28,973 nucleotides of DNA from positions 1 to 28,973 of the IMG/VR virus record IMGVR_UViG_3300046507_000605; one strand, written 5' to 3'. Both the position numbers and the translations under genes were made by a program. The DNA comes from a virus. Of this stretch, positions 2,505 to 28,942 are shown piece by piece. The notes under the pieces are model-generated. The model made no database searches, was not told the origin of the DNA, and was given only the letters and a program-made list of their open reading frames with translations. The stretch's first letter is position 1, and every line of letters starts with the position of its first letter.

Positions 2505-3359
2505 TTACATTACGAACTGTACGAACTCTGGCGACCGCATCATCCCTGATTTGTACCAGTTACGCATTCGTATCTTCGCTGTAATCAAAGGCTTCACGTA
2601 AACGAAGTTCTTATCCTCACCTGTTACGATGTCCTGAGCGATACTGTAGAATGCCTTACGGTGATTACTCGGCACCGCCAGCTCAATCACTCCAACCACT
2701 CGGCCGTCATGCTTTGCTAACCAACCGAATTCACTTTTCCGATAGCCGCAAATCTTCACATCAGCATAGGTGTAGTTGATCATCTTCAGCCACTTGTCTG
2801 ACCTTCGCCCAACATAGCTGCTGTCCTTACGCTTGGCGACGATCCCCTCGAGCTGTTGCTGCTCAATGACCTGGAATAAATCTTTCCCGCGGCCATCGAT
2901 CTGCATTACGCGTTTGAAGTGAGTGTTCTCCGTCATGATTGATTCAAGAATCGCCCGGCGTTCAGTAAGCGGCAGTTTTCGAACATCTTTGCCGTCAACC
3001 TGCAGCACATCGAATACGAAATACTGTACCGGTATCTTCCGGATGCCTTCCTGAACTCTCTCCTGCTTCGTCATCATAAACCGCGTCATAATTGCCTCAA
3101 AGTCAATCATTCCCGTGTCGGGATCGACATATGCAACTTCACCGTCAAGAATGCAACTGGTGCAGTTTAGCGGCGGTGTATGCAACTCTGGATACTTCTG
3201 TGTCACTTCGTTCTCATGCCTCGTCCAGAGCTTTATAGAATCTCCATCCTTAGCGAGCAGCAGCCGGTGTCCGTCGATCTTTGGCTCAAACACATACCGT
3301 GGATCGTCGAACGGCGCTTCTCTCTTCTGGAGGAGCATTGCTTGTGGTGCAGTGTTCAT
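2505..3359 (-). CDS. ATP-dependent DNA ligase (YoqV-like)
   Basis: A 284-residue ligase. Residues 25-31 (EPKIDGH) are motif I with the lysine (K27) that takes AMP. The other ligase motifs follow in order: ILDGEVAY, QYFVFDVL, EGIVAKRK and SDKWLKM. After the nucleotidyltransferase domain comes a short OB-like domain. Length and order resemble the small ligases of Bacillus phages such as SPbeta YoqV. It should seal nicks in phage DNA using ATP, unlike the NAD-dependent host enzyme. The start at 3359 follows GGGAGTGA; a longer frame to 3605 runs into structured non-coding DNA. A TACAAT lies upstream without a clear -35. Confidence 0.92.
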   Translation of the reverse strand: MNTAPQAMLLQKREAPFDDPRYVFEPKIDGHRLLLAKDGDSIKLWTRHENEVTQKYPELHTPPLNCTSCILDGEVAYVDPDTGMIDFEAIMTRFMMTKQERVQEGIRKIPVQYFVFDVLQVDGKDVRKLPLTERRAILESIMTENTHFKRVMQIDGRGKDLFQVIEQQQLEGIVAKRKDSSYVGRRSDKWLKMINYTYADVKICGYRKSEFGWLAKHDGRVVGVIELAVPSNHRKAFYSIAQDIVTGEDKNFVYVKPLITAKIRMRNWYKSGMMRSPEFVQFVM

Positions 3360-4036
3360 GATGTCTTCACTCCCATCTTCCAATTGTAACATTTCGTTAC
3401 TCTCAGAACCTTGGGAAGTGATGGTCACTACACACATCGAAACTGCCAAAGACGCATAGCCAGAAATGCTTATCAGGCATTCCCCTTTGCGCGACTGCCT
3501 CCCGGTTGGCCCGTTTAGTAGCTTCGATCTATGTATGAATGGCGGTAATTTATAATATGCGCCTACCGCCAATGCGCCGTGCCCGGAATGGGCCGCTATG
3601 TGCACACCTTTAATGCTCCGGGGTATTCCCCTCTGTGTGCTGCTTCAAATGGAATCCGCAAAGCTGTGTCATGGGATGAAGGAGTTTCCTCCTCAAAGTT
3701 AGTCGGGTGCCACCCGAAAGTTACGGAGAAGCTATACATCACCAGACGCTCTATAAGGCGATTACAGACGTTTTGATATTGCAATACATCTTTACCGCGC
3801 AGTGTACCAAACATATGTTCTGTGACCGCCAGAGAGCGTCTGACAACGAGATACTATGATCACCTCCGGCAGTGGCTGCCTTCATGATGAACTCTGAGGA
3901 CAATCGCGATGATCCCCGCTTGTGCTACCCTCACGAATTAAACGGATGGGGTATGTGTTGTGTCGGGGTGATGCGTTTTTGCCTCTCACTTATAGGTGGC
4001 GTTTGAATGACATATAGGATGGAAATAAGTTTAATG
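3360..4036. other. Structured gene-free region with consecutive hairpins
   Basis: About 680 bases without a convincing gene. Between 3541 and 3716 there are five perfect inverted repeats: GGCGGTA/TACCGCC (3541-3570), GCCC/GGGC (3581-3593), GCACAC/GTGTGC (3602-3640) enclosing GGGG/CCCC (3620-3631), AGGAG/CTCCT (3680-3693) and CGGGT/ACCCG (3704-3716). A further AATGC/GCATT lies at 3465-3481. This density suggests a folded RNA of several hundred bases. The strand cannot be decided; no terminator with a T-run is seen on either side. The 72-codon minus frame 3596-3814 lacks a ribosome site and is taken as chance. Confidence 0.45.
3808..3821 (-). promoter_or_regulatory. LexA-like box, copy C
   Basis: On the minus strand AGAACATATGTTTG, one mismatch from CGAAC-RNRY-GTTYG. 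It lies at the edge of the structured region and could control a leftward transcript through it. Confidence 0.45.
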
Positions 4037-4097: not shown

Positions 4098-4307
4098 ATG
4101 GCTTTTTCTTATAAACCTTTGTGGAGATTGATGTTTGAAAAAAACCTCAATAAGAATTATTTACGTGAAGAATTAAAATTTTCACCAACCACCGTTGCTA
4201 AAATGGGCAAGGACGAATATGTATCACTTGAGATAATCGATAAGCTTTGCAATCACTTTAACGTCCAGCCTAACGATATATTGGAGCATAAGGAGGATGA
4301 CATGTAA
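4098..4307 (+). CDS. Small Cro/CI-type HTH regulator upstream of the integrase
   Basis: A 69-residue protein that is almost entirely a helix-turn-helix domain. It begins MAFSYKPLWRLMFEKNLNK, with the recognition region around SPTTVAKMGKDEYVSLEIID and the typical end FNVQPNDILEH, as in YozG-type (COG3655) regulators. GGGAGAG precedes the ATG. Its stop overlaps the integrase start by one base (TAATG), so the two are translated together. It probably controls integrase expression through the palindrome in their common promoter, making it part of the lysogeny decision. Confidence 0.85.
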   Translation: MAFSYKPLWRLMFEKNLNKNYLREELKFSPTTVAKMGKDEYVSLEIIDKLCNHFNVQPNDILEHKEDDM

Positions 4308-5500
4308 TGCCTTGGTATGAGGATGAAAAGACCGGTACTTATTACTTCAAAGTCAATTACAAGGAAAATGGGAAGTACAAACAAATCCTTCGCCGTGGAT
4401 TCAAAACTCAAAAGGCAGTTAAAGCTGCTATGGCTGAAGTCGAAAATGAAATAAATAAAGGAACGTTTATTAAGCCATCTAAACGACTTTATAAGGACTT
4501 TGTTGAAGACTGGCTAGAGGATAAAAAGCGGAGCATTAAAGCTGGATCGTTGCTCAACTATACAACTCTCATGAGAAATCACATCTTACCAGAGCGTGAT
4601 AATAGCAAAGGTAAAGCTGTAGGACTTGGTAACAAGGAAGTGGGAGCGATCACAACACGTGACATATTAGACTTATACAATGAGCTCCATGAAACTGGCA
4701 GGATATCCGATGAAAATATTCAAAAGTGCCACACTCTCATTAAGGACTCGTTCAAGCAAGCCAGAATTGAGAAGCTTGTTTCTGATGATCCCACAGAATT
4801 TATCAAACGCCCCACCGCTCGAAAAAAGGAAATGGAAGTTTGGTCTTTGGGCGAAGTTCAACGATTCCTATCTGCTATAGAGAATGACCGGCTGTACATT
4901 GTTTTCTTGCTTGCACTCACTACAGGTATGCGACAAGGTGAAATATTAGGTTTACGGTGGAAAGACGTTGATTTAGATAATCGGATCCTTAGCGTTACTC
5001 AGATATTGAATCATGATGGGAAAAGTTTTGATGTTGGGGCCAAAACGATATCTGGTCAAAGGCCGATACGAGTCGACAAAGAGACTATGGAGGTATTGGC
5101 AAAATATCAAAGAAAAGCTAAGGAAGAGCGGATGAAATATGCTGATGTGTTCGAGGATTACGGTTTGGTCATTTCTACTCGATTTGGCACTCCTGTATCC
5201 CCTCGTAACGTCAATCGTACCTTTGATCGATTGGTCGCCGATATTAATGCTAACATCGATGCTCGTCGTGCAGTTGGAGAGCAAACAGAAGATCACTTGA
5301 AGAAAATACGGTTCCACGATCTGCGTCATACGCACGTGACGTTCTTAATCAAAAACAGAGAAACACCTCAAGCTATTGCTGAGCGACTTGGATGGTCAGA
5401 CACTAGGATGATTGATAAGTATGCACATATTCGACCCGACATCCAAGAAGACGTTGCAGATACATTTGGGAAGTCTTTTTACAGCAGCAAAGAGATGTGA
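4307..5500 (+). CDS. int: Tyrosine-recombinase integrase
   Basis: A 397-residue phage integrase. Residues 1-55 are the three-stranded arm-binding domain, with YYFKVNYKENGKYKQ and KGTF after it. Residues 60-170 are the SAM-like core-binding domain. Residues 175-390 are the catalytic domain, with R209 (TTGMRQGEILGLRW), K246, H337-R340 (HDLRHTH), W363 (GWSD) and nucleophile Y372 (DKYAHI) all present, so the enzyme should be active. It catalyses integration at, and with an excisionase excision from, the attachment site directly downstream. The arm-type repeats start inside its own stop codon. Ribosome site AAGGAGG lies within the upstream HTH gene. Confidence 0.95.
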   Translation: MPWYEDEKTGTYYFKVNYKENGKYKQILRRGFKTQKAVKAAMAEVENEINKGTFIKPSKRLYKDFVEDWLEDKKRSIKAGSLLNYTTLMRNHILPERDNSKGKAVGLGNKEVGAITTRDILDLYNELHETGRISDENIQKCHTLIKDSFKQARIEKLVSDDPTEFIKRPTARKKEMEVWSLGEVQRFLSAIENDRLYIVFLLALTTGMRQGEILGLRWKDVDLDNRILSVTQILNHDGKSFDVGAKTISGQRPIRVDKETMEVLAKYQRKAKEERMKYADVFEDYGLVISTRFGTPVSPRNVNRTFDRLVADINANIDARRAVGEQTEDHLKKIRFHDLRHTHVTFLIKNRETPQAIAERLGWSDTRMIDKYAHIRPDIQEDVADTFGKSFYSSKEM

Positions 5501-21707: not shown

Positions 21708-22088
21708 TTGGAAACATCAGCAAAACAAACTCTGGGTACTCGGCTAACTATGCTGCGCAAGAAAAAAGGGTACACACAAGCATGGATGGCAGAAACACTA
21801 GAAATGTCTCGTTCTAATTATGGCGGATACGAACTAGATCGCATCCAACCGCCTTCAGAGGCTCTTAATAAAATTGCTGCACTTTTAGACACAACAATGG
21901 ATTTCCTAATCGGAAATACAGATATCTCTGTAAAAGCTGACGCAGAAGATCGATTCATTGACTCATTGGATCTTGCTGACGAGGCCATCATGGAGAAGTT
22001 CAACTTGACGCTTGATGGCCAGACTTTAACTCCGGACCAAATGAAAACAATGATTACTGTTCTTCGTGCTTTGAAGCAGCAGAAGTAG
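21708..22088 (+). CDS. Cro/CI-type phage repressor
   Basis: 126 residues starting at TTG 21708. Residues 8-63 are a classical Xre-type HTH: LGTRLTMLRKKKGYTQAWMA, then SRSNYGGYELDRIQPPSEAL and LLDTTMDFLIGN. The C-terminal ~60 residues are helical, with TLTPDQMKTMITVLRALK; there is no peptidase domain, so induction is not by self-cleavage. It diverges from the early operon and is the probable lysogeny repressor. Both operators share TGACAYTA half-sites. Confidence 0.88.
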   Translation: METSAKQTLGTRLTMLRKKKGYTQAWMAETLEMSRSNYGGYELDRIQPPSEALNKIAALLDTTMDFLIGNTDISVKADAEDRFIDSLDLADEAIMEKFNLTLDGQTLTPDQMKTMITVLRALKQQK

Positions 22089-22762: not shown

Positions 22763-22801
22763 TACGAAAAGAAAAACGGCCTAGCTGAATGCTAGGCCGT
22801 T
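22763..22801 (-). terminator. Terminator of the agr-like operon
   Basis: On the minus strand AACGGCCTAGC pairs with GCTAGGCCGTT (11 bp, loop ATTCA), followed by TTTTTCTTTTCG. The stop codon of the LytTR gene is within the stem. Confidence 0.88.
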
Positions 22802-23533
22802 AACTATTTGGGAAACCATGCTGCGTTTGGTTCCTGGAATATCAACTGATGTTTCATCTTTAAAGCGGATGAAAGAAGCACCTGCCTGACTTTCCGTTAC
22901 ATCATCGACATAATCAATATTGACTAAAAGGCCACTATCGATCTTGACGAAGGTTGGGAACATTTCCGAACAAGTTTCCATCTTCAGGATAACTGTGAAT
23001 ATCCCTTTTGCTGTATGGAACCTCGGCACTTTGTAGTTGCTTTTAACTTCAAATGTGTCTATGTAACAAAGATCAGCAAGGGAGAACGTTCCGAAATCAT
23101 CTGTCACCTCATACCCATTCTCGTCCACAATCATCCCAACAAACTCTACGTCCAGCGGTATCTCCCGCAGCTCCTGGGTCATTGCAAGGTCGATCCGTCC
23201 TTTAGGAACCTGAATCTCTTTGGCTCCGTCGAACATGGCGATTGCTACCCCCGAGAATCTTTTCTGAGAAATATCCTTCACCTGTCTAGGATTAACCAGA
23301 TACTTCGTATCGACCGGAATGAAATTGTAACCTGAGAACAAATGCTTACAGGTTTCAAGTGTTAGCGGAACAGAATATTCATCGCCAGAGATAAGGTGGA
23401 AACCTGGTACGCAGTAATTCTTTTTGGGCCGCCAAGTTTTAATGTACTTTACCTGACCGCCCTTGAAGACTCCAAGCTTACCAGTTTCCTTATCCTTCAC
23501 AACTTCAACACCAAGAAATGTTCTTCTTATCAT
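22781..23533 (-). CDS. Regulator with two LytTR-like domains and no receiver
   Basis: 250 residues; ATG at 23533 has AAGGTG 7 bases before it (ATG at 23539 is too close). Two copies of a LytTR-like DNA-binding domain are seen, about residues 25-120 and 135-245. They share YIxTxxxKxNYxVPxFH, then a glycine, a TxETC / METC segment, and VNxxxVxD, the LytTR signature for the strand before the recognition part. There is no CheY-like receiver, unlike AgrA. Last gene of the agr-like operon, 11 bases after the AgrD-like gene. It probably binds DNA as a built-in dimer and controls phage genes in response to the peptide (inference). Confidence 0.8.
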   Translation of the reverse strand: MIRRTFLGVEVVKDKETGKLGVFKGGQVKYIKTWRPKKNYCVPGFHLISGDEYSVPLTLETCKHLFSGYNFIPVDTKYLVNPRQVKDISQKRFSGVAIAMFDGAKEIQVPKGRIDLAMTQELREIPLDVEFVGMIVDENGYEVTDDFGTFSLADLCYIDTFEVKSNYKVPRFHTAKGIFTVILKMETCSEMFPTFVKIDSGLLVNIDYVDDVTESQAGASFIRFKDETSVDIPGTKRSMVSQIVNGLAFS

Positions 23534-23544
23534 AAGCATGCACC

Positions 23545-23667
23545 TTACTTACGTTTCAGTTCTTGGGGCAGCTTTTGAGCGCCAACAACTGTCTTGTTGA
23601 TAGTTGCAAAACCATCAGCGCTTTTCTCCAGTCCTTTAGAGAACTGTTTAGCTAGTACTTTTTTCAT
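23545..23667 (-). CDS. agrD: AgrD-like signal peptide precursor, 40 residues
   Basis: A short gene starting inside the last codons of agrB (20-base overlap), with GGGGGTG before ATG. The product has the AgrD layout: an amphipathic basic helix (MKKVLAKQFSKGLEKSADG), a central segment (FATINKTVVGAQ), and the conserved tail KLPQELKRK, which corresponds to the xPxEL recognition tail cut by AgrB. There is no cysteine, so the usual thiolactone cannot form. A lactone through Ser or Thr, or a linear peptide, would be needed. Position between agrB and the regulator supports the call. Confidence 0.75.
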   Translation of the reverse strand: MKKVLAKQFSKGLEKSADGFATINKTVVGAQKLPQELKRK

Positions 23668-24205
23668 ACTTGTTCACCCCCTTCCATATTGGGACTATGA
23701 GAACACCCTGAACTAAAAAGGTAAGGGTGAGCACATCGGATTGGATAAAGATATTTGAAAAGACTAGCATCAGTGATATTACTTTCATAGCTGGATAATA
23801 TTTCGGGTTCATATTCGTCGTCTCCTCATCCATGTTTGGTGAGAATCTCAGGAAAATTAGACCCGTTATGATTGTCAATAATAGCACATATGTTCGCATT
23901 ATTTCAATATGTGGAATAGGTGCTATTAATGCTGCAGTCACGAACGAACAAAGTGTTAATGATTTGAAATGAAAACCTCCGGAGAAGAAACGAATGACAC
24001 AGAATGCAGTGAACGATACGATTGTCATTCCAAGTGAGTTAGTAAGCAAACCAGTAATGACAACAAGAACAGCTGTTAAAAAGAAATTTAGATAAACCCC
24101 TAACGCATACGCCATTACATTCACACTTGCAGTAATCCCCTCGGGATCTACAGCTTTTATTTTGTGAGCAATTGATCGGGATAGTGTCTCAATCAAATTG
24201 ACCAT
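23648..24205 (-). CDS. agrB: AgrB-type membrane peptidase
   Basis: 185 residues, with five or six membrane segments. The catalytic motif of AgrB is present: RFFSGGFHFKSLTLC, with His and Cys separated by six residues as in staphylococcal AgrB (H77, C84). It should cut and cyclise the AgrD-like peptide and help export it. The start is uncertain: ATG at 24205 touches the GAAAGG site, while TTG at 24196 has the better spacing. Overlaps the receptor gene before and the agrD gene after. Confidence 0.9.
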   Translation of the reverse strand: MVNLIETLSRSIAHKIKAVDPEGITASVNVMAYALGVYLNFFLTAVLVVITGLLTNSLGMTIVSFTAFCVIRFFSGGFHFKSLTLCSFVTAALIAPIPHIEIMRTYVLLLTIITGLIFLRFSPNMDEETTNMNPKYYPAMKVISLMLVFSNIFIQSDVLTLTFLVQGVLIVPIWKGVNKYEKSTS

Positions 24206-24860
24206 CCTTTCTGTTTGAGTAGTAATATAAGAAGCCGAATGCAATTAGTGCAAAGGGAAGGATACAGAGTGTGACAAGATGTACTATGGTGATCAGAGTC
24301 ATTGAGATAACAACAAGAACTGCAACAGTTGCTATCAGAATGTTTCTGTTTACCGGCGATAAAATGTCATCTTTAATATTGAAATCATGTGGAGGTTCAA
24401 TGATAAAGGAGAAACCTCTTCCGAATTTGTAAAATATAAAACCAATTATGTAGGATGCCGAAATGCTTGTGATCTGAATGAGACTAACTCCATATCCTTC
24501 CGCCTGGCTTATCACGTTGCTGTGAATGATTCCAGTTTGTGTCATAAACAGGATTATCAGAAGCTGCAAGGGAATATAAGCTCCGATCGCGGTAACTGTC
24601 ATGAATAAGGACCAATGCAGTTTATATTCGAATCCATATCTTAAAAACAAACTGAAGATAATCACTTGTACTGGTAAGTCAATCAGAGGAACGTCCAGTA
24701 CAATCCGAAATAAATAAGACACGATTGCGACTGTCACGCACCCAAGTACTATTGTTCGATGGTGTTTTAACATCGGTTGTCTATGTAGCTTTAACCCTAG
24801 AACAAAAACTGCTAAAGCATCAAAAACACTTAGAACAATGTACAAAACATCACTGATCAT
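24189..24860 (-). CDS. AgrC-like membrane receptor without kinase domain
   Basis: About 223 residues, nearly all membrane: seven hydrophobic segments (roughly residues 3-22, 35-57, 61-77, 82-107, 125-145, 173-195, 198-216). This matches the 6-7-TM sensor half of AgrC, but the protein stops after the last segment (YYYSNRKDGQFD). No DHp or ATPase domain is present here or in the next genes. It overlaps agrB in the same operon, so it likely senses the peptide. How it signals without a kinase is open: direct contact with the tandem LytTR protein or with a host kinase. ATG 24875 is an alternative start. Confidence 0.65.
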   Translation of the reverse strand: MISDVLYIVLSVFDALAVFVLGLKLHRQPMLKHHRTIVLGCVTVAIVSYLFRIVLDVPLIDLPVQVIIFSLFLRYGFEYKLHWSLFMTVTAIGAYIPLQLLIILFMTQTGIIHSNVISQAEGYGVSLIQITSISASYIIGFIFYKFGRGFSFIIEPPHDFNIKDDILSPVNRNILIATVAVLVVISMTLITIVHLVTLCILPFALIAFGFLYYYSNRKDGQFD

Positions 24861-25056
24861 CTCGGTCACCGTCATCCTTCTTCAGGCGATTTTCGCCGTA
24901 TTGTATCACGCTTGATTTCAAAAGAAGTAGTGCCCCACCTGAAGCTTCTCGATATGTGAGTTTGTTCATTTTACACAACCTTGATATTTGCCGTCGTGAT
25001 ACCTTAAGATGATCAGCAGCTTCTCCAGCAGTCATTACCTCATCCAAAGGATTCAA
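24850..25056 (-). CDS. Excisionase-type small HTH protein, first gene of the agr-like operon
   Basis: About 68 residues. TTG at 25056 is chosen, since AAGGAG lies 9 bases before it and the ATG at 25065 directly abuts the site. The domain is an HTH_17/MerR-like winged helix: MTAGEAADHLKVSRRQISRL, then KMNKLTYREASGGALLLLKS. The tail is acidic (KKDDGDRDDQ). It overlaps the receptor gene by 11 bases. It could bind the operators in its own promoter or act as an excision factor linked to the peptide signal (inference). Confidence 0.75.
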   Translation of the reverse strand: MNPLDEVMTAGEAADHLKVSRRQISRLCKMNKLTYREASGGALLLLKSSVIQYGENRLKKDDGDRDDQ

Positions 25057-25119
25057 TATAATCATCTCCTTTTTCCTGTATTTTCAGAACCTATGGGTTC
25101 CGATTTAGGTAAACAATAT

Positions 25120-25137
25120 GAGTCTCGTTCGAGACTC
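25120..25137. promoter_or_regulatory. Operator 1 of the agr-like operon
   Basis: GAGTCTCG-TT-CGAGACTC, arms of 8 bp. It lies downstream of the -10 of the leftward promoter and shares AGTCTC-N4-GAGACT with operator 2. Centres are 34 bp apart. Confidence 0.7.
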
Positions 25138-25146
25138 TGTAGTTAG

Positions 25147-25176
25147 ATAATACCAGTCTCAAATGAGACTTGTCAA
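25147..25176 (-). promoter_or_regulatory. Promoter of the agr-like operon with operator 2 in the spacer
   Basis: Minus-strand TTGACA, 18 bases, TATTAT, a strong sigma-A promoter. The spacer contains AGTCTC-ATTT-GAGACT on this strand (25155-25170). A repressor there would block polymerase directly. The regulator is unknown; candidates are the HTH proteins of this window or the LytTR protein. Confidence 0.8.
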
Positions 25177-25278: not shown

Positions 25279-25331
25279 ATTCCTTGAATATCATTATGAG
25301 GAGGCGGTTATTTGGAGGTGAAACTACATAT

Positions 25332-25457
25332 ATGGAGCAATCCTCTGAGCACGGTGAAGATCACCGTACTGAAAAATTAGATCAAAAAGACTCCTATGGG
25401 CAACAAAAAGAAAATGTTGATCTAATTGAAATTATTAAAAGACTAATGAATTCTTAA
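25332..25457 (+). CDS. Small hydrophilic peptide gene, 41 residues
   Basis: ATG at 25332 with GGAGGTG 11 bases before it, a slightly long distance. The product is very polar (MEQSSEHGEDHRTEKLDQKD) and ends in an amphipathic helix (VDLIEIIKRLMNS). An overlapping frame starts at TTG 25312 with its own GGAGG at ideal spacing and encodes 22 residues, possibly a leader. The product has no signal sequence. Placed opposite the agr-like operon behind a good promoter, it may be part of the circuit; function unknown. Confidence 0.5.
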   Translation: MEQSSEHGEDHRTEKLDQKDSYGQQKENVDLIEIIKRLMNS

Positions 25458-26309: not shown

Positions 26310-28685
26310 TTACCTTACTGGCGCAGGGAGCTTAGTGATAAACCGTGCGTATCCATCTTTGTTCTTAATCAGATTCAAGCTGTGATGCCGTGGAAGCTTA
26401 AGTAGATCCTCCTCTGTATATGGATACAGTTCGCTGCTCAGCTCCTTATAATTGTTCTTATCGCAGCCACTAATAAGCATATAAGAGGCATTGGCTGATC
26501 GCAACTCGTCGCGGATATGCCGGATCTGGTTGAGATAGTGGGCGCTTATGATCGGCTTTGCTCCGAACTTAGCCAATCGGCTGATCTTTTCTGTGAGAAG
26601 CTTTTCTGTATTCTCGACTTGATACAACTCATCGATAATGACATTTAGTTTGGTTAGATCGTTCCGATCTGGTATCTGTTGCCCACGTATCTGGAGTGCC
26701 AGCCAAATCTTAGCTAGCCAGTAAGTCGTATAGATGTCGCGTTCTCCATCTGTTTGGAACATGGTCTCAGGCATTTTCAAGCATATCAATTGATTCTTCT
26801 GGATCTCTTGGACCAGATCGATGTTCCCAGCAGTTGATTTCTTAAGCATCTGTTCCATCCAAGTGTTCGCTTTGAGTTTGTTCAGACGATCAATTACACC
26901 AGTGATAAGGTGATCTTTAGTACCGCATAACACCGATTCAACTATCGTGTCCTTCCCAACCTTCGTTTTCACATCCTTGTATTCATCAAGCTCCTCAAGA
27001 TTATTCATGTACTCTTCTAAGTTTTCAAAATGCACTTTTGGTACTTTCATAAGAAAAGAATGTCTGGCTTGATGGTTCTGCAGCACACTGAATACATCCT
27101 TGATGCTCCCTCCTGTTATGAACACGATGTTCGCTGCACTTGTTAAGTATCGTTCCATCTTAGCTGACAGTCGTGTATCGTCAGCATTAATTGAATTGAT
27201 CAAGGCCATCAGCTGCGTGGTCTGCTTCTTCGCATTATCGTATTGGTAAAAAGGGTCTGGGGTATGAGGGACTTCATTGAATCCTAATCCTTGTATTTTC
27301 CGAGGGTCTGCACAATCAATGACCAATCTTTTATCTAAGGGGAATAGTGCTGCTACTTCAGAACTTAGCTCGCAGTTTTTAACGAAGTCAAAGATGAAGA
27401 CACTCTCACCTGCATTAATTGCGTCTCGGCTTAGGTTGCCGATTAGTGTAGATTTACCAGCACGTGTTGGTCCAATAATCGCGAGCATGAGGTTTTTATA
27501 TTCTTTATCGTTTGTAAGATACGCCTGCTGATCATGGCCGCGATATGTGCTGGTGCCAATACACATAACCCCTTGCTTCAGATCATCCGGTACTTGGGTT
27601 TCCTGTGTCTCTACCTTGTCAATGAAGTCATAGCGCTCTAACACGCCTCGACCAGGCAACTCTAGGAAGTTCTGTGCCTCCAGATCACCAACCTTATTCT
27701 TAGAAGCTGCTGGTAAATAGCGATCCGTGAATTGAAACTGCCGGCGATAAGGCTTGTAGAGCAGCCTGTTGTCTTCTGACACTGTGTCAAAGGATTGTGC
27801 TAGGCTGCGTGCTGCATTCCTCTCCCGAAGCTTATCTTCGCACTCTGCCATGACTAAAATCTGAGTATCGATCACAGTGCTTGAGGCTTTCTTGGTTGTG
27901 CTCTCGCTTACCTTACGGCCTCCGTTCAATCGGTCGAGTAATGTGTCCATATAGTCGGCGCCCGCTCCTGAGCCCTTACGATCGCCTCCTAGCGATTCAG
28001 CTATCTCCTTGAATACTGCATTCCCCGCAGCGATCAGGTAGCGGAATAGATACCAAGTTCCCATCTTATTGCGGTCTACTGGTAACCTGCGGTTGACTTT
28101 GTCAATTGTGGCCTTGTAGAGATGCCGCCAGCTGAGTTGTGAGGTAGGTATGAAGTTATACATTATGGCGAGCTTATCGCCTTCCTCAAGCAGTTCTACT
28201 GCGTTCAGGTTACTTGTGAGCAAGTCATTGTTACGGCGGTCTGTAGCCATGCTCAGGGCGTCCTCTTTCTCATAGACCAACTCATACCGTGTGGCCTTAG
28301 TGCTGAAGCCTGGGAGCTCAGAGACCTCTTCGATTGTCACCTGCCCCCATACGTCCGACAGCTTCTCACGGAGATAAGACAGATGCTGCCGCGGAACTAT
28401 GAAAAAGAATTCAACCTTTCGTTGTTCCATGTAAATGTAATAGCCAACCTTAGCCGGCAGAGTGTAGCGGTATTTTGTGCCGAGCACGAATTCTCTGCCG
28501 AATGCTTTAATCAGTTTGTGTTCTTCGATTTTGATGTTAGAGAGTGCGGTTTTGTATAACGAGGCAATTGCTCTAGCGATCTTATAGGTGCCTTGGTTGC
28601 GGACAGCATTGTTTGGTTTGATTTTGAGGTAAACATATTCAGGGTGTGAAACCTGTAGGTATTTCGTGAACGTGATGCTTTTCAT
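26310..28685 (-). CDS. HerA/VirB4/VirD4-like P-loop ATPase
   Basis: 791 residues from ATG 28685, which overlaps the previous stop by 4 bases. The first ~390 residues have no clear motif. The ATPase domain follows: Walker A GPTRAGKST (405-413), IFDFVKN (431-437), and Walker B NVIIDELYQ (681-689), then LAKFGAKPIISAHYLNQI, as in TraG/VirD4 and VirB4 relatives. Such motors move DNA or protein in conjugation, or pump DNA. The nearest group cannot be fixed by eye. A T4SS-type motor next to phage regulation genes is unusual and suggests a phage-plasmid or mobile-element mosaic (inference). Confidence 0.8.
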   Translation of the reverse strand: MKSITFTKYLQVSHPEYVYLKIKPNNAVRNQGTYKIARAIASLYKTALSNIKIEEHKLIKAFGREFVLGTKYRYTLPAKVGYYIYMEQRKVEFFFIVPRQHLSYLREKLSDVWGQVTIEEVSELPGFSTKATRYELVYEKEDALSMATDRRNNDLLTSNLNAVELLEEGDKLAIMYNFIPTSQLSWRHLYKATIDKVNRRLPVDRNKMGTWYLFRYLIAAGNAVFKEIAESLGGDRKGSGAGADYMDTLLDRLNGGRKVSESTTKKASSTVIDTQILVMAECEDKLRERNAARSLAQSFDTVSEDNRLLYKPYRRQFQFTDRYLPAASKNKVGDLEAQNFLELPGRGVLERYDFIDKVETQETQVPDDLKQGVMCIGTSTYRGHDQQAYLTNDKEYKNLMLAIIGPTRAGKSTLIGNLSRDAINAGESVFIFDFVKNCELSSEVAALFPLDKRLVIDCADPRKIQGLGFNEVPHTPDPFYQYDNAKKQTTQLMALINSINADDTRLSAKMERYLTSAANIVFITGGSIKDVFSVLQNHQARHSFLMKVPKVHFENLEEYMNNLEELDEYKDVKTKVGKDTIVESVLCGTKDHLITGVIDRLNKLKANTWMEQMLKKSTAGNIDLVQEIQKNQLICLKMPETMFQTDGERDIYTTYWLAKIWLALQIRGQQIPDRNDLTKLNVIIDELYQVENTEKLLTEKISRLAKFGAKPIISAHYLNQIRHIRDELRSANASYMLISGCDKNNYKELSSELYPYTEEDLLKLPRHHSLNLIKNKDGYARFITKLPAPVR

Positions 28686-28942
28686 TTTGCCACACCGCCC
28701 AAGAGGTATCGTATTAAAGCAACTGATGTGAACGTCAATCCTGCCCATCGGTATCCGTTCTTTAGCCCGACTGTACCGAGGATAATGAGCGCTGCACAAC
28801 CAATAAGACCAGCCCCATAACTTAACTCGTAAAGCACAGTAGCGGCTGCCTGGAGCCAATCCAGAACGTGTGCAGCCATACTGTGTGCTACTTGATCCTT
28901 GACTGCATCTCCTATGCTGTGAGGCACTTTCTCTGCAATCAT
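28682..28942 (-). CDS. Small two-span membrane protein, possibly pilin/VirB2-like
   Basis: 86 residues. A polar N-terminal helix (HSIGDAVKDQVAHSMAAHVL) is followed by two membrane segments around residues 38-58 (YELSYGAGLIGCAALIILGT) and 66-82. The layout resembles small membrane proteins encoded just before T4SS ATPases in Gram-positive elements. The frame stays open to the window edge and the ribosome site (AAAGG) is 12 bases from the ATG, so the true start may be outside. No named family. Confidence 0.65.
   Translation of the reverse strand: MIAEKVPHSIGDAVKDQVAHSMAAHVLDWLQAAATVLYELSYGAGLIGCAALIILGTVGLKNGYRWAGLTFTSVALIRYLLGGVAK

Follow-up and report, generated by a model that had tools for sequence, protein, structure and literature searches.

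Phages are known to signal with small linear peptides, as in arbitrium (AimR-AimP-AimX), in which temperate phages of Bacilli communicate through an imported linear peptide and a cytoplasmic TPR receptor. In the agrBDCA system of Staphylococcus aureus, AgrB cuts the precursor AgrD between M32 and D33, and C28 attacks the acyl-enzyme to give a 16-membered thiolactone (PMC10196373; PMC4979651; PMC5789755). LytTR Regulatory Systems, such as HdrRM and BrsRM of Streptococcus mutans, work without phosphorylation, a membrane protein inhibiting the LytTR regulator, and have as a defining feature direct repeats, spaced about 12 bp, immediately before the -35 box (PMC6193735). Agr genes on phages are not new: the cited sections of the 2014 phiCDHM1 paper by Hargreaves and colleagues (PMC3901668) report for the Brevibacillus phages Davies, Emery and Abouo an AgrB, a putative AgrD and membrane proteins that lack HATPase_C, and do not discuss the LytTR gene of these phages. 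According to the same sections, agr3 of the Clostridioides difficile phage phiCDHM1 places AgrB and AgrD beside a sensor gene as well; its AgrC includes a HATPase domain, and in that phage no response regulator was found. Here we describe an agr-type cassette from a soil-bacterial phage, in the window, by which we mean the whole of the viral IMG/VR record IMGVR_UViG_3300046507_000605 (28,973 bases). On balance we favour reading it as a phage-borne, kinase-less signalling cassette with a Lys-lactam signal, an AgrC-type receptor and direct LytTR control, acting on phage genes.

The cassette is a single minus-strand operon (25176-22775) that begins with a sigma-70-type promoter (TTGACA-18-TATTAT at 25147-25176, 11 of 12 consensus positions, with the TG of an extended -10 box) and ends with an intrinsic terminator of 11 pairs and a T tract (22775-22801). 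Five open reading frames (ORFs), overlapping or abutting, run from 25065 to 22781. A helix-turn-helix (HTH) gene comes first and is followed by the core four, which encode a seven-helix receptor-like protein, AgrB, a 40-residue AgrD-like peptide and a tandem LytTR regulator. An earlier note, made from the sequence of this DNA, had listed these five genes as an excisionase-type HTH protein, a 7-transmembrane AgrC-sensor-like protein, an AgrB with an intact motif, a peptide with a PQEL tail and a tandem LytTR protein, bracketed by a promoter and a terminator, and each part was recovered at its place and on its strand. Like S. aureus agrBDCA, the locus combines an AgrB (PF04647) with the H-x6-C residues, a small precursor with a P-x-E-L-type tail, an AgrC-like sensor and a LytTR output in one operon; unlike it, it has no AgrC histidine kinase, no AgrA-type receiver joined to LytTR, two LytTR domains, and a Lys at position -4 of the precursor instead of the ring-forming Cys or Ser at -5. 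The note had called the parts different from arbitrium and from classical agrBDCA, and the distance proved greater than it claimed, with kinase, receiver and ring Cys/Ser all missing; the lysine and the loss of the kinase go beyond what it had noticed.

The precursor (23545-23667, minus strand; MKKVLAKQFSKGLEKSADGFATINKTVVGAQKLPQELKRK) ends in PQELKRK, with PQEL at residues 34-37. It contains no Cys anywhere and no Ser near its core, and has Asn at -5 and Lys at -4. These positions are counted from the predicted AgrB cut, whose offset was taken from S. aureus AgrD (14-residue tail, tail Pro at +6, Cys at -5) and applied to all precursors; the precursors themselves were picked by their position after AgrB and a P-x-x-L/M tail, ignoring the ring position. 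In the window the cut would fall between V28 and G29, and the predicted macrocycle K25-T-V-V28 is encoded at 23584-23595 (minus strand). Among 144 distinct cores, Lys occupies -4 in 99 (two of which also have Ser at -5), Ser occupies -5 in 38 and Cys occupies -5 in five, while the two cores with none of these are both wrong ORFs. Ser or Cys at -5 and Lys at -4 are thus practically exclusive. When the Lys-bearing (K-type) precursors were clustered at 60% identity, Lys was at -4 in 41 of 41 clusters (entropy 0, compared with 3.35 bits at -5 and 2.95 at -3), no cluster had a Cys between -12 and -1, and one had a Ser at -5. At -1 the residue is usually Ile, Val, Leu or Phe, and at +1 Gly prevails. 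Two K-type forms were seen, KxPhiPhi/G in all mobile members and KPxx/H on chromosomes, the slash marking the predicted cut. In control loci of other Bacilli, most of them beside a kinase, the residue at -5 was Cys or Ser wherever a precursor was found.

The two arrangements give the same ring size: closure by Cys or Ser at -5 counts 4 + 4x3 = 16 atoms, and closure through the side chain of a Lys at -4 counts 7 + 3x3 = 16. Given this equality and the mutual exclusivity of the residues, we predict that Lys-type precursors yield lysine macrolactam signals. The window peptide has the features of the proposed class of lysine macrolactam autoinducing peptides (AIPs), namely Lys at -4, a 16-atom ring and neither Cys nor Ser at -5, and would belong to it as judged from its sequence. 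We found no report of a natural lysine-type AgrD or lactam AIP in the open-access literature.

AgrB itself (23648-24205, minus strand; Pfam AgrB 6.9e-13) carries the H-x6-C dyad of a membrane cysteine protease; its open frame opens at 24244, and the conserved start at 24205 is probably the true one. The dyad (H92/C99) is kept in 71 of 71 K-type and 39 of 39 S/C-type AgrBs. The positions that best separate the K-type from the S/C-type lie in a loop at about residues 137-149, which, aligned on the catalytic Cys, corresponds approximately to the H4-H5 loop region contacting AgrD in the S. aureus model (PMC10196373).

The receptor-like protein (24189-24875, minus strand, 228 residues; PHROG_15604 1.4e-44) resembles the sensor domain of AgrC and has no kinase. 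It gave no Pfam match, nor did any of 38 such proteins (E 0.01), and its AlphaFold2 model shows seven long helices (predicted local distance difference test, pLDDT, 87). A hidden Markov model (HMM) of the family aligned to approximately residues 4-222 of sensor proteins of 420-450 residues that precede AgrB in other Bacilli (best 2.2e-9). The C-terminal parts of these longer sensors are weakly kinase-like with no HATPase match in Pfam, so that they are possible pseudokinases; among five of them (L255, L256, L259, L260 and L262), the C-terminal half had no Pfam kinase match in four of five scanned. Two operons with such sensors (L255 and L260) encode a full receiver-LytTR regulator. These comparisons are most simply read as loss, of the kinase half in the sensor and of the receiver in the regulator. 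The positive-inside rule puts the most conserved stretch of the receptor family, GFSFIxxPPHDF, on the cytoplasmic side, in the loop that joins helices 5 and 6. We also considered homology of the receptor to the divergent SPOB_a kinases found beside a few related cassettes and rejected it, as hhalign gave no significant alignment to them, against a significant match to the other AgrB-linked sensors.

The regulator (22781-23539, minus strand, 252 residues) contains two LytTR DNA-binding domains and no receiver, and all 18 tandem regulators analysed matched LytTR and nothing else, with no Response_reg. With a receptor lacking a kinase and a regulator lacking a receiver, the cassette encodes no phosphorelay. 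This arrangement resembles the logic of LytTR Regulatory Systems, which likewise pair a receiver-less LytTR regulator with an adjoining co-operonic membrane protein without an enzymatic domain. It differs from them by having AgrB and a dedicated precursor in the operon and an AgrC-type sensor, and we do not file it as one because their defining direct repeats were not found.

Taken together, these parts suggest the following mechanism. The catalytic Cys of AgrB would form an acyl-thioester as the precursor is cut between V28 and G29, and the side-chain amine of Lys25 would attack this thioester, releasing the 16-atom macrolactam K-T-V-V. The N-terminal part would then be trimmed and the peptide exported, to be bound and read by the seven-helix kinase-less sensor. 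The receptor could directly hold or release the tandem LytTR regulator, probably through the conserved cytoplasmic loop, with no phosphorelay. The targets of the regulator may be the cassette promoter and phage genes close by, and in this way relatives in adjacent cells would influence induction or maintenance.

Several results weigh against this proposal. The precursor search gave no candidate in 26 of 205 AgrB loci, the register of one peptide (L032) is uncertain, and one counted as Lys-bearing (L117) is a wrong ORF. The conserved Lys could serve AgrB recognition or a second cleavage that yields a linear peptide. In the AgrB tree one branch (support 79.8; deep nodes weakly supported) sets the K-type proteins apart from the rest, so the Lys rule may record one ancestral event and not repeated convergence; several origins of the Lys type, suggested by two changes in a first tree, were discarded as one change suffices after removal of long branches. 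A PDB fold search with the receptor model returned no match. Finally, in a simple scan of 170 upstream regions LytTR-type direct repeats were not enriched around the expected period of 20-22 bp, and the same kind of scan found no direct repeats of period 15-39 upstream of the window cassette; we therefore dropped such repeats as an upstream element of the cassette.

The cassette lies in a phage setting, as the earlier note had claimed. Besides DnaB, RecT, an SbcC-like protein, a RuvC-like resolvase, a sigma factor and a DNA methyltransferase, the window encodes a tyrosine integrase (4307-5500) and an RstR-like XRE repressor (21708-22088, plus strand; 1e-15), so that the repressor and integrase named in the note are both on this element. 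The XRE repressor lies 0.7 kb from the cassette and is the probable lysogeny repressor. At the right end of the window (26310-28859) is a VirB4/TrwB-like ATPase, which raised the question of an integrative and conjugative element or plasmid. We rejected that identity, as the ATPase family occurs in tailed phages (a full-length relative in Terrisporobacter phage TPDSL_ph2 is 30% identical) and as the closely related viral contig L234 has phage genes. L234 shares 93% protein identity in the ATPase, 84% DNA identity over the 2.6 kb of this gene and 77-81% over the recombination block, and it encodes a head-tail adaptor, tail completion protein, holin and endolysin. We therefore take the window to be, most likely, a portion of a tailed temperate phage. 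AgrB is absent from L234, which carries a different repressor in the stretch that separates its ATPase from its recombination block, and we conclude that the cassette is accessory and located in the repressor region.

Related cassettes are widespread. The order receptor-like protein, AgrB, AgrD-like peptide, LytTR was found in Paenibacillus larvae phage Harrison and in Davies, Emery and Abouo, and homologues of AgrB and the receptor are present in Paisley. The same four genes follow one another in Paenibacillus plasmids, in most of 31 viral contigs from IMG/VR prophages and in most of 34 genome contigs. For finding these loci a receptor alignment served far better than a single AgrB query, which gave one distant match in viral contigs. 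Compared with the Davies, Emery, Abouo and Harrison cassettes (PHROG_10353, 15604 and 15081), the window shares the gene order, the kinase-less membrane protein, the Lys-type precursor and the lysogeny neighbourhood, at about 25-40% identity, and differs in its tandem regulator, which has a single LytTR domain in the phages. In addition, Davies and Emery have an extra membrane protein, so that two receptor-like proteins stand in tandem before AgrB (L006 2619-3278 and L007 2622-3287). A search with an AgrB profile detected AgrBs of this kind in 259 of 400 genomes from Paenibacillaceae, the host family. Related cassettes are thus common outside recognised phages, and others are on plasmids, so the core of the cassette is a signalling module of general use, one that phages employ too. 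Several genomes have two to six AgrB cassettes of this family (G001, G144, G150; L051, L055, L064), with six in P. alvei DSM 29; a K-type cassette stands next to an S-type one in some of them, and cross-talk is possible.

This distribution bears on what the cassette controls. The earlier note had inferred a lysis-lysogeny circuit, a role that is plausible from position only, related cassettes being common in Paenibacillaceae genomes outside recognised phages and on plasmids. A host-directed function, that is, a lysogenic-conversion cassette (a moron) that alters host behaviour with no control over lysis and lysogeny, is a serious alternative that we hold to be quite possible, though short of an even chance, and it is compatible with the same molecular mechanism. 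It accounts for the spread of related cassettes in genomes and on plasmids, for the absence of AgrB from so close a relative as L234, and for the location of the cassette within about 3 kb of the contig end in most IMG/VR prophage contigs (the ends being approximate), which is a usual place for such genes. It sits less well with the neighbourhood: in the complete temperate phages Harrison, Davies, Emery and Abouo the cassette is near recombinase or integrase and XRE regulator genes, and the position beside lysogeny genes that the note had pointed to therefore holds in four complete phages as well as in the window.

A linear signal is an unlikely alternative to the lactam. AgrB would cut before G29 and the product would be hydrolysed, with the Lys serving as a second, trypsin-like cut site or as a surface recognised by AgrB. 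The window peptide has neither Cys nor Ser to close a ring, basic residues are common at about -5 to -7 in the mobile K-types and could suit a trypsin-like protease, and arbitrium provides a precedent for small linear phage peptides. A linear product would not explain why Lys is fixed at the exact 16-atom offset and excludes Ser and Cys at -5 across the family; a ring size held at 16 is hard to explain if the peptide is linear. Moreover, the chromosomal K-type LKPWA/HSPEAPKEL has no basic cluster before the Lys, and AgrB retains its catalytic dyad. No TPR or AimR match was found when the proteins of the cassette and of the regulators next to it were compared with Pfam, NCBIfam and PHROGs, and where arbitrium has a cytoplasmic receptor the window has a membrane protease, a membrane receptor and a LytTR regulator.

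More improbable still is that the receptor-like protein partners a histidine kinase of the host, so that a chromosomal two-component system relays the signal and the LytTR regulator is a modulator. Several HATPase_c_5 kinases occur in the host genomes tested, and a divergent SPOB_a/HATPase histidine kinase adjoins a few chromosomal S/C-type cassettes (L196, L197, L202, L210 and L221), where it is possibly an added or ancestral kinase branch. However, 18 of 20 genomes had no HATPase_c_5 match within 10 kb of an AgrB locus among the matches listed. A kinase HMM built from two histidine kinases, which found a kinase beside most canonical AgrB loci used as a positive control, found none beside 95 K-type loci apart from one weak, distant match. 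The regulator also has no receiver to accept a phosphate, and the cassette moves on phages and plasmids without a kinase. That the cassette is a decaying, non-functional agr remnant is scarcely credible, for although it looks degenerate by canonical standards, with kinase, receiver and peptide Cys missing, its ORFs are intact, the AgrB catalytic residues are invariant in 110 AgrBs, Lys at -4 is invariant, and gene order is maintained at 21-41% receptor identity, a purifying conservation that argues against decay.

The first gene of the operon (24850-25065, minus strand) encodes a 71-residue excisionase/MerR-like protein (Pfam HTH_17 2.9e-6), whose match to the excisionase model TIGR01764 is below the cut-off of that model. 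An HTH gene also heads a few S-type chromosomal cassettes (L186, L208, L011, L222 and L223), and the proteins of L186 and L208 are close homologues of the one in the window (NPLDEV..T..EAA..L.V..RQ..RLCK). An exact-match scan found two copies of the perfect palindrome AGTCTC-N4-GAGACT, one immediately after the -10 box (25121-25136) and the other within the -35/-10 spacer (25155-25170), 34 bp from the first. From their sequence and placement both are probable operators. No further exact copy occurs in the window, and an operator common to the cassette and the neighbouring repressor was discarded, exact copies being confined to the cassette promoter. A divergent 57-residue ORF (25284-25457) lies immediately upstream of this promoter. 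Elsewhere in the window is a ligase gene (2505-3605); after a plasmid cassette (L004, 7855-8393) come a gene for a Doc-type toxin and one for an ATP-dependent DNA ligase.

The combination of a kinase-less AgrC-type sensor with a receiver-less regulator, and a Lys-type precursor without a ring Cys or Ser, appear to be undescribed so far. We regard as evenly poised the wider proposal that an agr lineage of Paenibacillaceae, Brevibacillaceae and their phages has swapped in Lys, makes natural 16-atom macrolactams, reads them with kinase-less receptors that directly control LytTR regulators, and provides phages with a chemically stable circuit. The ring-size rule makes a sharp prediction, one that a single mass-spectrometry experiment can test. 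If the proposal is true, AgrB proteases make amide-linked rings besides thioester and ester ones, a new natural AIP chemistry whose lactam signals should resist hydrolysis better than thiolactones do. Agr sensing would also be able to work without a phosphorelay, which would connect research on agr with that on LytTR Regulatory Systems and suggest a ligand class for pairs of receptor and LytTR proteins, and the phages of Paenibacillus and Brevibacillus would gain a communication channel distinct from arbitrium.

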